DNA of 21,215 bases from a virus. The stretch spans positions 1-21,215 of the IMG/VR virus record IMGVR_UViG_3300022200_003589. One strand, 5' to 3'. Shown in pieces: positions 5,053-18,981 of this stretch; the first letter of the stretch is position 1, and every line of letters begins with the position of its first letter. Below the pieces are notes generated by a model, which was given only the letters and a program-made list of their open reading frames with translations, was not told the DNA's origin and made no database searches. The translations under genes and the position numbers were made by a program.

Positions 5053-5199
5053 CTACTTCTTTTTGGCTGTCTTAGCAGCCTTTTTAAATTGTTTAGTGGT
5101 TGGCGCACCTTTGGTTCCAGGCTTTCTCATTTGCTCCCCAGAGCCTTCTTTAATCCTTTTGCGCTTGGCGTGAATGTTTGCGTATAATCCTTTTTTCAT
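5053..5199 (-). CDS. Small basic conserved phage protein (KKGLYANIHAKRKRIK type)
   Basis: The 48-aa product starts MKKGLYANIHAKRKRIK and continues with GSGEQMRKPGTKGAPT and a Lys-rich tail. I recall this pattern as a recurring small protein of T7-like and other marine phages with no assigned function. The ATG at 5199 is four bases after the preceding stop; an in-frame upstream start at 5274 would overlap the 84-aa gene and lacks the conserved beginning. Charge and repeated linkage to endonuclease I and terminase genes hint at a role near DNA, as inference only. Confidence 0.75.
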   Translation of the reverse strand: MKKGLYANIHAKRKRIKEGSGEQMRKPGTKGAPTTKQFKKAAKTAKKK

Positions 5200-5203
5200 A
5201 TTG

Positions 5204-5458
5204 CTATTTTTTTGATTTAGCTCCAGAACACTTCCATCTTTTTCTTGATAAGTTGTTAGGTGTGTTCGGGTCATTCTGTTTTGCCTTAGGTAATCCTTTT
5301 TTTATGCCAAGGCTTCTAGCACAGTAAGAGTCGCCTTTAGATGTTCCAGGTTTAACTCGTGGGCCACCTCCTTTAGCTTGACCTGCTTGACCATAGCTAA
5401 CTTTTTTTCCAGACGATGTTATCTTTACTTTTGCTTTTCCTTTCCTAGGTGTTGCCAT
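5204..5458 (-). CDS. Small basic Cys-containing conserved phage protein
   Basis: The 84-aa product has a Lys/Gly-rich first half and a conserved-looking second half: SYCARSLGI, then NDPNTPNNLSRKRWKCSG. The SYCARS...LSRKRWKC block recurs, as I remember it, in small phage proteins of unknown function. Two cysteines (in YCAR and RWKC) bracket the block and might bind metal. The start lies one base after the spanin stop, so it is translated as part of the same mRNA. No function is assigned. Confidence 0.75.
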   Translation of the reverse strand: MATPRKGKAKVKITSSGKKVSYGQAGQAKGGGPRVKPGTSKGDSYCARSLGIKKGLPKAKQNDPNTPNNLSRKRWKCSGAKSKK

Positions 5459-5459
5459 C

Positions 5460-5927
5460 TTATCTCAGTAACTTAAAGGTAAATCTTATGCCTAGTATAA
5501 CTAGTACTATTAGCAGCAATGATACAGCAATACCCTTGACATTATTTGTCAATTGCTTTACTATGCCCTGCTCCCTTACTACAACCTTATCAAATGGTAC
5601 TTTGACGACCTGAATGACTGTATCACCCTTGCACTCCCCTTGGATATGTACTGTATCACCAACCTTAACGTACTTAATTCGTAGCTTGTCTCGATATACA
5701 TAAGTAGTATCGCCAGGAATATCAATGAACGATGTATCAATCTTGACTTCTTTAGTAACAATGCTAACCGTGTCATATAGTGTATCTTTTTGTAGTAGCT
5801 GGGGGTATTTAATTGTTAGTTTCTCTATCTTCCTTTCGGCCTTACGGAGCTTTTTCTCCATCTTGCCTTCAAATGAACAGCTAGATAGTACGAGTGCAAA
5901 TATACATATTAAGTAATTAAGCCTCAT
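5460..5927 (-). CDS. Candidate unimolecular spanin (outer-membrane lipoprotein with C-terminal membrane anchor)
   Basis: Starting at the ATG at 5927 the product is 155 aa. Residues 1-17 form a lipoprotein signal with lipobox LSSC, so C17 would be lipidated. Residues 20-46 are charged and predicted helical. The middle (about 48-118) is beta-rich with repeated DT(V/S) motifs. Residues 132-148 form a hydrophobic transmembrane segment followed by a short basic tail. An N-terminal outer-membrane lipid plus a C-terminal inner-membrane helix is the layout of u-spanins such as T1 gp11, which fuse the two membranes at the last step of lysis. It directly follows the holin-like and DUF5675 genes and overlaps the latter by 11 bases. 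A longer in-frame start at 6017 is rejected because it would bury the signal peptide. Confidence 0.72.
   Translation of the reverse strand: MRLNYLICIFALVLSSCSFEGKMEKKLRKAERKIEKLTIKYPQLLQKDTLYDTVSIVTKEVKIDTSFIDIPGDTTYVYRDKLRIKYVKVGDTVHIQGECKGDTVIQVVKVPFDKVVVREQGIVKQLTNNVKGIAVSLLLIVLVILGIRFTFKLLR
5897..5904 (-). promoter_or_regulatory. Possible internal promoter within the spanin gene
   Basis: Minus-strand TATATTTG is a perfect TAnnTTTG match inside the 5' part of the spanin gene. It could give extra transcription of the small basic genes and endonuclease I downstream. As it encodes part of the signal peptide, it may be chance. Confidence 0.25.
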
Positions 5928-15596: not shown

Positions 15597-15839
15597 ATGG
15601 ATAAAGAAACTATACTTAAAATAAATAAGTCTCAGTTAGCCAAAGGTTTATTTGGTTTACGTAAGTCAAAGAACTTAACTCTTGAAGATTTAGCCTTCTA
15701 TCTTAATAAGGATATTGCTTATCTTTCTCGTATCGAGAACATGAAAACATCTCCTAGATTAGAAACTATATCTGATATTTTATCTTTCTATGATATTACT
15801 ATTAAAGAGTTCTATGATAAACTTGATCAATATCTTTAA
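15597..15839 (+). CDS. XRE-family helix-turn-helix regulator
   Basis: The 80-aa product is almost only an HTH_3/XRE domain. The helix-turn-helix comprises LTLEDLAFYLN (27-37) and the recognition helix around IAYLSRIENMK (40-50), with the family hallmark SRIENMKTSPRLETI. A fourth helix follows (ISDILSFYDITIKEFYDKL). There is no extra sensor domain. It is the only plus-strand gene inside the minus-strand head module, and its promoter overlaps the scaffold promoter, so it is well placed to control itself and the scaffold-capsid unit. Its stop overlaps the portal stop by three bases. Alternatively it governs host genes. Confidence 0.88.
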   Translation: MDKETILKINKSQLAKGLFGLRKSKNLTLEDLAFYLNKDIAYLSRIENMKTSPRLETISDILSFYDITIKEFYDKLDQYL

Positions 15840-18220
15840 GCTGTTGGTATTGTAGGTGTTACAGATGGCATACGGGATCCGCTTGCTTTAGGTAAATCTA
15901 TTTTATCGTAAGCTGTAGACTCTCCGTTAGATTTGTTCTGCATACTTACTTTATTGTTTTCTACCTCCGCTGCCTTTTCGATAAGTTCTTTCTTGCCGTC
16001 AAGTTCTAAAGCAATAGTCTTACGCTTTTCATCTTCAAGCTGAGTTTGATTTCTTAATTCAAGGTCATACTTCAATTGAAGGTTTTGTGCATCTAGTTGT
16101 GCTTGAGCCTGAGAAGATTGCATTTTAGCTTGCTCTGCTGCCTGGGCTACCTGGGCCTGCATTTGTGCATTTTGCTGTTGCATTAATTGCTGCCTCTTCT
16201 CATTTTCTTTCCTTCTTCGCTTTTCTCTTACAGAAAGTAGTTGCTCTGCCTTATCGACATCTTCATCCATTACCCTGCGAATAGCAAAGACATCTTCTAA
16301 ATTAATCATTTGGTTTTGAAGGGCTAACTCAATCTTAGCATCTAAGAATGCTTTTTCCTCTTCTTCCGGAAGCATCTTAATACTGATAGCAAAATCACTT
16401 GTAGTAAGATCAGTTAAACCTAATTGCTTAACTACTTCCTCCCCTACCATTGCTTCAAATACAGGTAGATTGATTTTTCTTCGTATTAATTGCTGTGCTA
16501 ACATTGCTACTTGTCTTCCAATGTCCTCGTTCATTTTAAGGTAAGCATTGAATAAAGTCTTAAGTGCATTCTTAGTTCCAGCAGCAGAAAGCTTCTGTAC
16601 GCCTACCGCAGCCCTTTTATCGGCTTGGGATGAGTCTACTGCGTCATTCATACCAACAGTCTCTTTCATGCGCTCTACGGTAGCTATATAAGCTTGAGAG
16701 AGAAGCATGATGCTGTTGTCTAAACCGTTTGGTAGGTTTGTAACAGCAGGCTGACCTCCTGTTATTGATGTACCATCTTCTCTGAGGGCTTTGTAGTATA
16801 TGTCTCCGATTTGATCTCGCATAGATCTAGCATCGAGTGGTGTCATTCCACTTAATCCCATACCCTGAAGTCCCCCAATTACAGCATCAATATTAATTGC
16901 GTATCCAGAAGGTGCAGCTTTACTTATTATCTGTTGCATCTTTAGTTGGATACGGATAAGCTCATCAGCGTAAGGAATCATCTCCTCTACTTTTGACTTA
17001 TTCTCCATGTCGTAGATGTCTGGCGCATTTATAATGAAACCTAATGAAGTATTAGTACTGAATTTACCATTCAATCTTTCGCGTATAATATGCTCTTTTA
17101 AACCAAAATCAAAAATATAGTCTGTATCTACAATGTACTTACCTGTATATACATTTTTAATCTTTTTGCTTCTTGTTTCTTTTTCCGCTTTTGAGTTCTT
17201 TGGGTCTTCGTTGATCAGCGTTTTATAACCGCCATTCTTCGCTTTTACTTTAGTAAGGCTAAGAGTGTCAGTAGAAAACATTTCAAAGTCTAATACAGAT
17301 ACTTTGAACTTGTCTACTTTTTCCCAATCAAAGTTATTGTCGTAGTACCTTTTATTTAGGCCGTCCCAATTAGAGTTTCCGTACTTACCTGCTACTGTCT
17401 TTGCAATTTTAAATAAGTCTTCCTCTGTTATTTGCCCATTGGATATCACTCGTAAATCTTCCAAGGTAATCTCATCTAGTACCCCTGCGTGCTTAATGTC
17501 CTTAAAATCAGGACGTTTAGTGTAAGAAGTTACTAGGTCTACTGGGTCAATGTACTTTACTTGTATGTTTTTATTTTCATCTAGGCAAACTCTTGCCGCA
17601 ACTATTTTAATATCAATAAGGTCTTTTGATATTCTGTCGTTGATGTAGTCAATGTCGTTGTCTTCAAGAATAGCTTTTGTAATGCTTTCCATGGCAATAC
17701 ACTGTGCTAACTTGAAAGACGATTCCATCATTATCTGAAGTTCGTCATCGTCCTCTGGAAGATTGTCTTTTGATTTTACTATTCCCTCTTGCTCCAAAGG
17801 CCCCAGCTGTTCTTTTAGAACCATCTCGGCCTTAATAACCTTTTTTTCTCTGTCGTACTTTGTAAGGGATGTAGAATCTACAGCTTTAAAGTCTAGCTTA
17901 AAAGGCTGGTTAATCATTTGACCCCGCATTACCTCAACTAATTTAGGTAGTGGGGTAGATACTTGCCAATCAAAATTTAAGTAGGTATTGTCGCCATCAA
18001 TAGAGAACTGTTGCTTGAATTTCTCAATTGACTGTAAACCAGCAGAATACTTTCTGTTGTTGATGTATCTGTCTTTTCTTGTGTTAAAGGCGTATGAAGA
18101 TGATTGGTTTTTAGCCTCTCTCCATAGATCTTTAGCGTAATTCAAAAGATATTCCTTACTTCCTTTTACTTCTTTAGGCTCAAAGGATGATGGGAACTGG
18201 TTTTCGGACTCAAATGCCAT
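15836..18220 (-). CDS. Portal protein
   Basis: The 794-aa product forms the ring through which DNA enters the head. The N-terminal part has NTYLNFDWQVSTPLPKLVEV near 75-95, a YLN.D.....P.(I/L)PK pattern that I recall from large portal proteins of Bacteroidota podoviruses, including crAss-like phages. The centre has repeated segments expected of the wing and stem (QIGDIYYKALREDG; VERMKETVGMNDAVD). A Glu-rich stretch (MLPEEEEKAFLDAKIELA) leads into a long Gln/Ala-rich coiled coil near the C-terminus (QQQNAQMQAQVAQAAEQAKM), a common barrel extension. Length is at the large end for portals. It is first in the head module, after its own promoter. Confidence 0.85.
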   Translation of the reverse strand: MAFESENQFPSSFEPKEVKGSKEYLLNYAKDLWREAKNQSSSYAFNTRKDRYINNRKYSAGLQSIEKFKQQFSIDGDNTYLNFDWQVSTPLPKLVEVMRGQMINQPFKLDFKAVDSTSLTKYDREKKVIKAEMVLKEQLGPLEQEGIVKSKDNLPEDDDELQIMMESSFKLAQCIAMESITKAILEDNDIDYINDRISKDLIDIKIVAARVCLDENKNIQVKYIDPVDLVTSYTKRPDFKDIKHAGVLDEITLEDLRVISNGQITEEDLFKIAKTVAGKYGNSNWDGLNKRYYDNNFDWEKVDKFKVSVLDFEMFSTDTLSLTKVKAKNGGYKTLINEDPKNSKAEKETRSKKIKNVYTGKYIVDTDYIFDFGLKEHIIRERLNGKFSTNTSLGFIINAPDIYDMENKSKVEEMIPYADELIRIQLKMQQIISKAAPSGYAINIDAVIGGLQGMGLSGMTPLDARSMRDQIGDIYYKALREDGTSITGGQPAVTNLPNGLDNSIMLLSQAYIATVERMKETVGMNDAVDSSQADKRAAVGVQKLSAAGTKNALKTLFNAYLKMNEDIGRQVAMLAQQLIRRKINLPVFEAMVGEEVVKQLGLTDLTTSDFAISIKMLPEEEEKAFLDAKIELALQNQMINLEDVFAIRRVMDEDVDKAEQLLSVREKRRRKENEKRQQLMQQQNAQMQAQVAQAAEQAKMQSSQAQAQLDAQNLQLKYDLELRNQTQLEDEKRKTIALELDGKKELIEKAAEVENNKVSMQNKSNGESTAYDKIDLPKASGSRMPSVTPTIPTA

Positions 18221-18250
18221 AGTACAGACTTATAGTTAAAATATGTCTCG

Positions 18251-18258
18251 CAAAATTA
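18251..18258 (-). promoter_or_regulatory. Portal promoter
   Basis: Minus-strand TAATTTTG matches TAnnTTTG; the predicted start is about 25 nt before the ATG at 18220. It is divergent from the promoter at 18283 with 24 bases between the two -7 elements. Confidence 0.55.
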
Positions 18259-18282
18259 ATTAGGACTTACAGAAATAATTTG

Positions 18283-18290
18283 TATATTTG
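18283..18290 (+). promoter_or_regulatory. Promoter of the rightward operon and structured RNA
   Basis: TATATTTG within TTTGTATATTTGC, the 13-mer shared with two other plus-strand promoters. Expected start is near 18296. No other good promoter match is seen before the first gene of the operon at 18655. Confidence 0.65.
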
Positions 18291-18295
18291 CAGTC

Positions 18296-18533
18296 ATTGA
18301 TAAGCGTTTCTAAGGGGTAGGCTTCAACTCAACCCAACCACAGCAGGCAGGACTCTGCTGGATAGAGTTAAATTAACTGGGGTAAATCCAAGCTCTGTTC
18401 ACGGAGTAACAACTTGGTCACAAGCGATGCAGTAGAGATGCTGTTACATGATCCCCGCCATTTGCAGGTATGGTATAGTTAAGGAGGCTGGTAGGAGTTA
18501 AAGAGTCCCACACTGTTTTTCTTTTCTTTTTTG
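18296..18533 (+). ncRNA. Candidate structured RNA (free RNA or long leader)
   Basis: About 240 bases without a credible ORF lie between a strong promoter and a T-rich run (18515-18532). Hand folding gives compatible helices. (a) A closing stem of GGG, CTT and AACTC (18314-18330) with GAGTT, AAG and CCC (18495-18509). (b) CAGCAG/CTGCTG (18341-18346/18355-18360). (c) TTAACT (18373-18378) with AGTTAA (18477-18482). (d) GGGG (18379-18382) with CCCC (18453-18456). (e) CCAAG/CTTGG (18388-18392/18413-18417) enclosing CTCTG-TTCA-CGGAG. (f) GCCAT/ATGGT (18457-18461/18470-18474). TAACA (18407-18411) can pair with TGTTA (18442-18446) as a pseudoknot. An alternative pairing AACTC (18326-18330) with GAGTT (18365-18369) competes with (a). 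No signature of tmRNA, RNase P or a group I core was found. Confidence 0.6.
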
Positions 18534-18654
18534 TCTTAGGGCACAAGAAGATAAGTATCGCAGGTAAAGACTCCTGTGCCTAGAAATAAATAAAATATTA
18601 CCTACTTGTTTGTCCAGTTTTTTACTACTTTTACCGGACATAAAAAAAATAGCT
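18534..18654 (+). other. Non-coding stretch between structured RNA and first operon gene
   Basis: A hairpin pairs AGGGCACA (18538-18545) with TGTGCCT (18575-18581), one G bulged, with a 29-base loop. A second weak stem pairs TGTCC (18611-18615) with GGACA (18636-18640). No promoter match or ORF was seen. If transcription passes the T run at 18515-18532, this is the end of a roughly 360-nt leader. Confidence 0.4.
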
Positions 18655-18981
18655 ATGAAAGGATGGTTTCTATTTAACTACGGTATACTGTTAGACAACC
18701 TAACATCTTTAGTTGAAAAACACGCAGACAACGTATGGAGTAAGAAGTCTGTGTTTAATTACGCAAAAAGGAATAATCTACTCCAACCAAGTCCAGGTTA
18801 TGTACCTGAGCAAGAGGGTATGCTGGAGTACGATATTCAAGTTACTAACCCAGGATTCGACAGTTTCACAGACACACAGAAAAAAGCTATTCTACTGCAA
18901 AGTATGTTAGAGGTATGTGTTACTGAAGAGTACTATGAGGTAGCTGCTGTTTTAGAAAAAGAAATGAGTAAGATAAAATGA
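18655..18981 (+). CDS. Unknown 108-aa protein with UVR-like helical C-terminus
   Basis: From the ATG at 18655 the product is 108 aa (MKGWFLFNYGILLDNLTSLV...). An in-frame TTG further upstream lies in the leader and is not favoured. The last 25 residues (EVCVTEEYYEVAAVLEKEMSKI) resemble the two-helix UVR motif that mediates protein contact in UvrB/UvrC and in several adaptor proteins, though the pattern is short. The gene opens the rightward operon and its stop overlaps the next start (ATGA). Function unknown. Confidence 0.7.
   Translation: MKGWFLFNYGILLDNLTSLVEKHADNVWSKKSVFNYAKRNNLLQPSPGYVPEQEGMLEYDIQVTNPGFDSFTDTQKKAILLQSMLEVCVTEEYYEVAAVLEKEMSKIK

Follow-up and report, generated by a model that had tools for sequence, protein, structure and literature searches.

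The put antitermination RNA of phage HK022 is a structured RNA that lies directly after an early phage promoter and is not bound to one gene, and its put sites are short, with two adjacent hairpins. GOLLD and ROOL are large structured phage RNAs that are ornate, conserved and non-coding, with unknown function; the phi29 packaging RNA (pRNA) is a branched phage RNA that has its own promoter and lies near the boundary between genome modules; and cis-regulatory leaders (riboswitches and protein-binding leaders) combine a pre-operon position with conserved unpaired stretches and a multi-helix fold. Here, we describe a phage RNA of about 290 nt, known so far in three phages from metagenomic records only. 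By analogy it resembles put RNA in following a promoter and in having no tie to a single gene, but it is predicted to be multi-branched, with eight helices. The traits listed above for GOLLD and ROOL apply to it as well, yet it is smaller, occupies another genome location and has no Rfam match at a useful score. It shares with pRNA the branched form, the promoter and the position near a module boundary, but it has no family match and is not coupled to the portal sequence. It is like cis-regulatory leaders in all three respects, whereas its distant member has unrelated downstream genes, and no Rfam family matches it.

The window analysed here is the whole of a 21,215-base virus record, a phage fragment (IMG/VR IMGVR_UViG_3300022200_003589, positions 1-21,215), and a near-identical IMG/VR contig (L001) encodes a portal 100% identical to that of the window. 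A leftward block of terminase, head protein and portal genes and a rightward block of small genes, DUF3310, PhoH and a glycosyltransferase-like gene are separated by a gap of 434 nt (18221-18654), the largest in the listed gene layout, so the preliminary description was right to place 18296-18533 in the largest ORF-free stretch. The sole ORF of at least 50 aa in this gap is a TTG-started extension (18610) of the downstream gene. The portal is about 26-28% identical to those of named phages of Cellulophaga, Flavobacterium, Tenacibaculum and Maribacter, including Cellulophaga phage phi38:1; as these are all phages of Flavobacteriia, a Bacteroidota bacterium is the most likely host. The 108-aa product of the first rightward gene had no Pfam or PHROG match, and among viral contigs its family (MKGWFLFNYG...) occurs only in the phage of the window and in the homologue V described below. 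Both in the window (15597-15839, plus strand) and in the contig of homologue X (L002, 4361-4603, minus strand), a small gene for an HTH regulator, in antisense orientation, separates the portal gene from the next structural gene.

The closest homologue, V (L029/L074, contig IMGVR_UViG_3300006802_013820), carries an RNA 97% identical to that of the window (287/296 over 18295-18590), against 32% identity for the portal, and the similarity begins inside the promoter. The 108-aa gene product is 50% identical to that of the gene at this position in V. Given these portal and next-gene identities, the RNA was probably exchanged between phages together with part of the right block. A distant copy, X (L002, contig IMGVR_UViG_3300025832_000042), lies upstream of a portal 69% identical to that of the window, has no counterpart of the 108-aa gene beside it, and can be aligned to the RNA over its full length. 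It was found at 36.9 bits by a covariance model (R1) built from the window and V with the structure of the preliminary description; a model with a revised core and 5' end (R2), still with only the window and V as input, scored it at 62.5 bits (E=8e-20), the match covering 18293-18494 of the window. In all three phages the RNA sits where a leftward structural block and a rightward block meet, but V differs in the left neighbour gene and X in the right neighbour genes, indicating that the RNA is not tied to one gene.

Further searches returned no additional member. Two DNA-pattern scans of viral contigs found the window and V and no others, and two gapped-motif scans found the window, V and X, the remaining matches being chance. 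Matches from a motif scan of genome contigs were not recognised by the covariance model, blast against phages and plasmids gave no match to the RNA, and in the whole records of 26 relatives from portal and pattern scans and 36 PhoH relatives (blast and/or model) the RNA was present in V and X alone. Several weak candidates were rejected: matches of 17-20 bits in 395 Bacteroidota genomes, four of which were viewed, collapsed the model or sat in coding sequence; among four named phages with a related portal, a 14-bit match in Cellulophaga phage phi38:1 was confined to the 5' segment, lacked the helices and was treated as chance; and weak blast matches in L016, L078, L079, L081 and L083 proved on viewing to be coding DNA or chance. 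In another relative (L003), the spot that holds the RNA in the window and X is occupied by a TnpB-like protein gene (5085-5918) just upstream of the portal, with a transposase-like ORF further upstream, both judged by eye.

The promoter that had been proposed before the RNA is present, but as a -7 box of the Bacteroidota type, for which a consensus has been described (PMC7366714), and not as a sigma-70 promoter. The box lies just upstream of the RNA in the window and V, where nothing intervenes, and in X it precedes the conserved start by about 85 nt. Between box and RNA, X has a strong 16-bp terminator-like hairpin with a T-run (L002 ~1574-1535, minus strand), which might hint at conditional read-through. 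The HTH gene at 15597 of the window is preceded by the same -7 box, TATATTTGC. Transcription would start just upstream of CATTGATA, from the box at 18283.

The folding energy of the region was no better than chance (z=0.17 against dinucleotide shuffles), with core values of about -0.2 to -0.4 in the window and V and -1.9 in X, and forcing the stems of the preliminary description cost 7.6 kcal/mol relative to the minimum-energy fold. A single sequence therefore says little here, and homologues were needed. The comparison, effectively one deep comparison of the window and V against X with three members in all, revealed many compensatory changes, the check that the preliminary description had proposed. 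In a hand alignment of the window and X, which was fitted to the structure, 24 of the 39 comparable pairs carried two-sided changes, four were changed on one side, 11 were unchanged and none was broken; when partners were slid by 1-3 columns, two-sided changes fell to 0-5 and 18-27 pairs were broken. The model-made alignment, which also leans towards the structure, showed two-sided changes in 17/37 pairs with 97.2% of cells pairing, compared with at most three such pairs and 28-47% of cells pairing after sliding, and none of 500 shuffles reached the observed values. As a check independent of the alignments, P2, P3, P4, P5, P5b, P6 and P7 (Table 1) all appeared in the unconstrained minimum-energy fold of X. 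Folding the window and V alone recovered most of the inner core, with P5 taking an alternative. Paired positions were less often identical between the window and X (26/78, 33%) than unpaired ones (63/100, 63%), the pattern expected if pairing and not sequence is kept. Moreover, G-U pairs of the plus strand in P1, P5b, P6 and P7 are A-C mismatches on the minus strand, identifying plus as the sense strand. Taken together, these comparisons indicate that the region almost certainly encodes a real conserved structured RNA on the plus strand.

Table 1. Coordinates of the RNA, its parts and its flanking genes in the window, with the corresponding sequences in homologues V and X.
Feature	Position	Strand	Remarks
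Portal protein gene, left neighbour	15836..18220	-	phrog_6547, E=5e-93
Promoter -7 element TATATTTG	18283..18290	+	Bacteroidota TAnnTTTG type; found in window, V and X
Conserved structured RNA, whole extent (CATTGATA ... CTGTGCC)	18295..~18581	+	Homology to V and X
P1 5' strand GCTTC	18321..18325	+	Partner 18484-18488 GAGGC; X ACCTT/GAGGT, 1 two-sided, 2 one-sided, 2 unchanged
Conserved unpaired stretch AACTCAACCCAACCA	18326..18340	+	13/15 positions identical in X
P2 hairpin CAGCAG/CTGCTG	18341..18360 (18341-46/18355-60)	+	X: 6/6 pairs changed on both sides; V: one compensatory change, 18343/18358, G-C to U-A
P3 5' strand TTAACT	18373..18378	+	Partner 18477-18482; X ACTAC/GTAGT, 5 two-sided changes (hand alignment), 4 (model-made)
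P4 5' strand GGGG	18379..18382	+	Partner 18453-18456; X GGGTT/AACCC, one two-sided change
P5 (CCAAG/CTTGG) with inner P5b (18393-97/18402-06, CTCTG/CGGAG)	18388..18417	+	X CCAGG/CCTGG and TGAC/GTCA; two-sided changes: P5 1, P5b 3
Conserved, mostly unpaired GGTCACAAGCG	18416..18426	+	X GGTCATAAGCG
P6 hairpin GCAGTA-GAGA-TGCTGT	18429..18444 (18429-34/18439-44)	+	X AGTTAC-TAAC-GTAACT; 5 two-sided and 1 one-sided (hand alignment), 2 two-sided (model-made)
P4 3' strand CCCC	18453..18456	+	
P7 hairpin CCAT/ATGG, loop motif TGCAGG (18463-18468)	18458..18473	+	X CAGT/GCTG, identical loop motif; 2 two-sided changes, 1 one-sided
P3 3' strand AGTTAA, one G, P1 3' strand GAGGC	18477..18488	+	GGAGG invariant in X
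Pyrimidine/T-rich tract	18516..18532	+	Read directly; X has an A/T-rich hairpin instead
3' conserved segment AGTATCGCAGGTAAAGA...CTGTGCC	18554..18580	+	X AGTACCGCAGGAATAGA...CTGTACC; consensus AGTAyCGCAGGnAnAGA...CTGTnCC
First gene of rightward operon, 108 aa, unknown family	18655..18981	+	DUF3310 and PhoH genes come after

Most helices listed in the preliminary description (the P2 hairpin, TTAACT/AGTTAA, GGGG/CCCC, CCAAG/CTTGG with CTCTG/CGGAG, and CCAT/ATGG) are kept by two-sided changes, and a further hairpin, P6, is also supported. Its outer closing stem (18314-18330 with 18495-18509) was not kept; this has no equivalent in X, and P1 is the helix supported instead. The proposed AACTC/GAGTT switch likewise failed, as AACTC is invariant in X while both GAGTT partners are lost. 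Nor does the RNA end at the T-run: homology continues to about 18581, and no terminator was called there, with no G+C-rich hairpin directly before the U-run. A pairing of the T-run with downstream purines was rejected, as X gave it no support, and in the 3' domain the folds proposed for the window and V differ from that of X. The preliminary reading is supported as regards a structured non-coding RNA just downstream of a promoter, but it erred in the outer fold, in the switch and on where the RNA ends.

In the revised fold, P1 would close a junction and be followed by P2, while P3 and P4 would form a long-range stem around P5/P5b and P6, with P7 placed between P4 and P3 on the 3' side of that stem. 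P1 and P3 are nearly stacked. The invariant unpaired stretches AACUCAACnCAAnCA, UAAAUCC, GGUCAnAAGCG, UGCAGG and CGCAGGnAnAGA are likely contact surfaces; within the window, GGUCAnAAGCG had no antisense targets above chance. The Shine-Dalgarno-like GGAGG is paired within P1 and so is not a free ribosome site, and SD sequences are in any case absent from the mRNAs of Bacteroidota (PMC6847099). The motif GCAGG recurs in the P7 loop (18464-18468) and the 3' segment (18560-18564), both copies being kept in X, and in the window and V also in the P2 loop; it is possibly a repeated binding motif. The window further contains an internal 16-nt direct repeat of 81% identity (18357-18372, GCTGGATAGAGTTAAA; 18487-18502, GCTGGTAGGAGTTAAA).

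No known family accounted for the RNA. None of the 4227 models of Rfam 15 reached its gathering score in the window, where searches at E up to 10 gave only chance minus-strand matches far below the cut-off, and nothing came near the cut-off in X, in agreement with the earlier statement that the region matches neither tmRNA, RNase P nor 6S RNA. This whole-library search included the GOLLD and ROOL models, without a match in the window or X, and the phi29 pRNA model, without a match in the window; ARAGORN found no tRNA or tmRNA in the window or L002. A conserved reading frame across the region, which the preliminary description had named as evidence against an RNA, was not found: there is no ORF of at least 50 aa inside 18295-18581, and the alignment of the window with X contains indels of 1-6 nt. 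Judged by these comparisons, the RNA represents a family of structured phage RNA that is new with respect to Rfam, though its general kind is known; candidate lists have also been published outside Rfam (e.g. PMC8040213). Its carriers are relatives of the crAss-like phages of Bacteroidota.

On its anatomy, we tentatively favour a new structured phage RNA that may act in cis as a leader heading the operon, and propose the cis mechanism taken by itself a shade more cautiously. The RNA and the operon are on one strand, the first ATG comes about 75 nt further downstream with no terminator call between, and TATATTTG lies directly upstream of the RNA. The RNA would make up the 5' portion of the transcript of the rightward (early) operon and act on that transcript, whichever genes follow, through contact with a protein or RNA polymerase (attenuation or antitermination). 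Against this reading, the downstream genes of X are unrelated, and the terminator-like hairpin between -7 box and RNA in X does not fit a simple leader transcribed from that promoter.

Nearly as likely is a free-standing structured RNA acting in trans from its own promoter, independently of the downstream operon, which would serve as a scaffold or bind to RNA polymerase, to the ribosome or to a protein of host or phage. Its standing derives from the exchange of neighbours (the left gene in V, the right genes in X), through which sequence and fold were kept, and from the arrangement in X, where the hairpin intervenes between upstream promoter and RNA and the next ORF lies about 180 nt beyond the RNA, past further hairpins; the long conserved unpaired stretches also agree with it. 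However, no terminator follows the RNA in the window, and the position heading a rightward gene block is kept in 3/3 phages. A more specific version, in which a new class of trans-acting phage RNA docks early in infection, through its conserved unpaired surfaces, on a protein of host or phage (e.g. RNA polymerase or the ribosome) and has passed from phage to phage as a cassette that includes its promoter, is somewhat less likely.

A replication or packaging element, DNA or RNA, at the divergence point, such as an origin transcript or a pRNA-like packaging RNA, is improbable. The RNA does lie at the junction of divergent modules, where the base skew changes sign, and the window, V and X have one portal family in common, with one terminase family common to the window and V. 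But the skew is accounted for by gene direction, there are no iterons and the few repeats are short two-copy pairs, the contrast between RNA and portal identity in V means that the RNA does not co-evolve with the portal, and the whole Rfam library gave no match. Still less probable is the narrower leader that the preliminary description had envisaged, a riboswitch or protein-binding leader specific to the genes of the PhoH operon: the downstream operon is common to the window and V, but X has no relative of these genes beside the RNA, and blast and model searches found no copy of the RNA at 36 further viral loci where a related PhoH gene occurs. Finally, conserved DNA (operators), or chance sequence kept after recent transfer, could by itself explain the similarity between the window and V and the shuffle-like folding energy, but is hardly credible in view of the two-sided changes in X, which sliding abolishes for the most part, and the plus-strand G-U pairs.

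Conserved structured RNAs that match no Rfam family are not often found, and the RNA biology of Bacteroidota phages, which are abundant, is little known. The fold supported by covariation, together with the named invariant motifs, provides a ready search model and defined mutants for this RNA.
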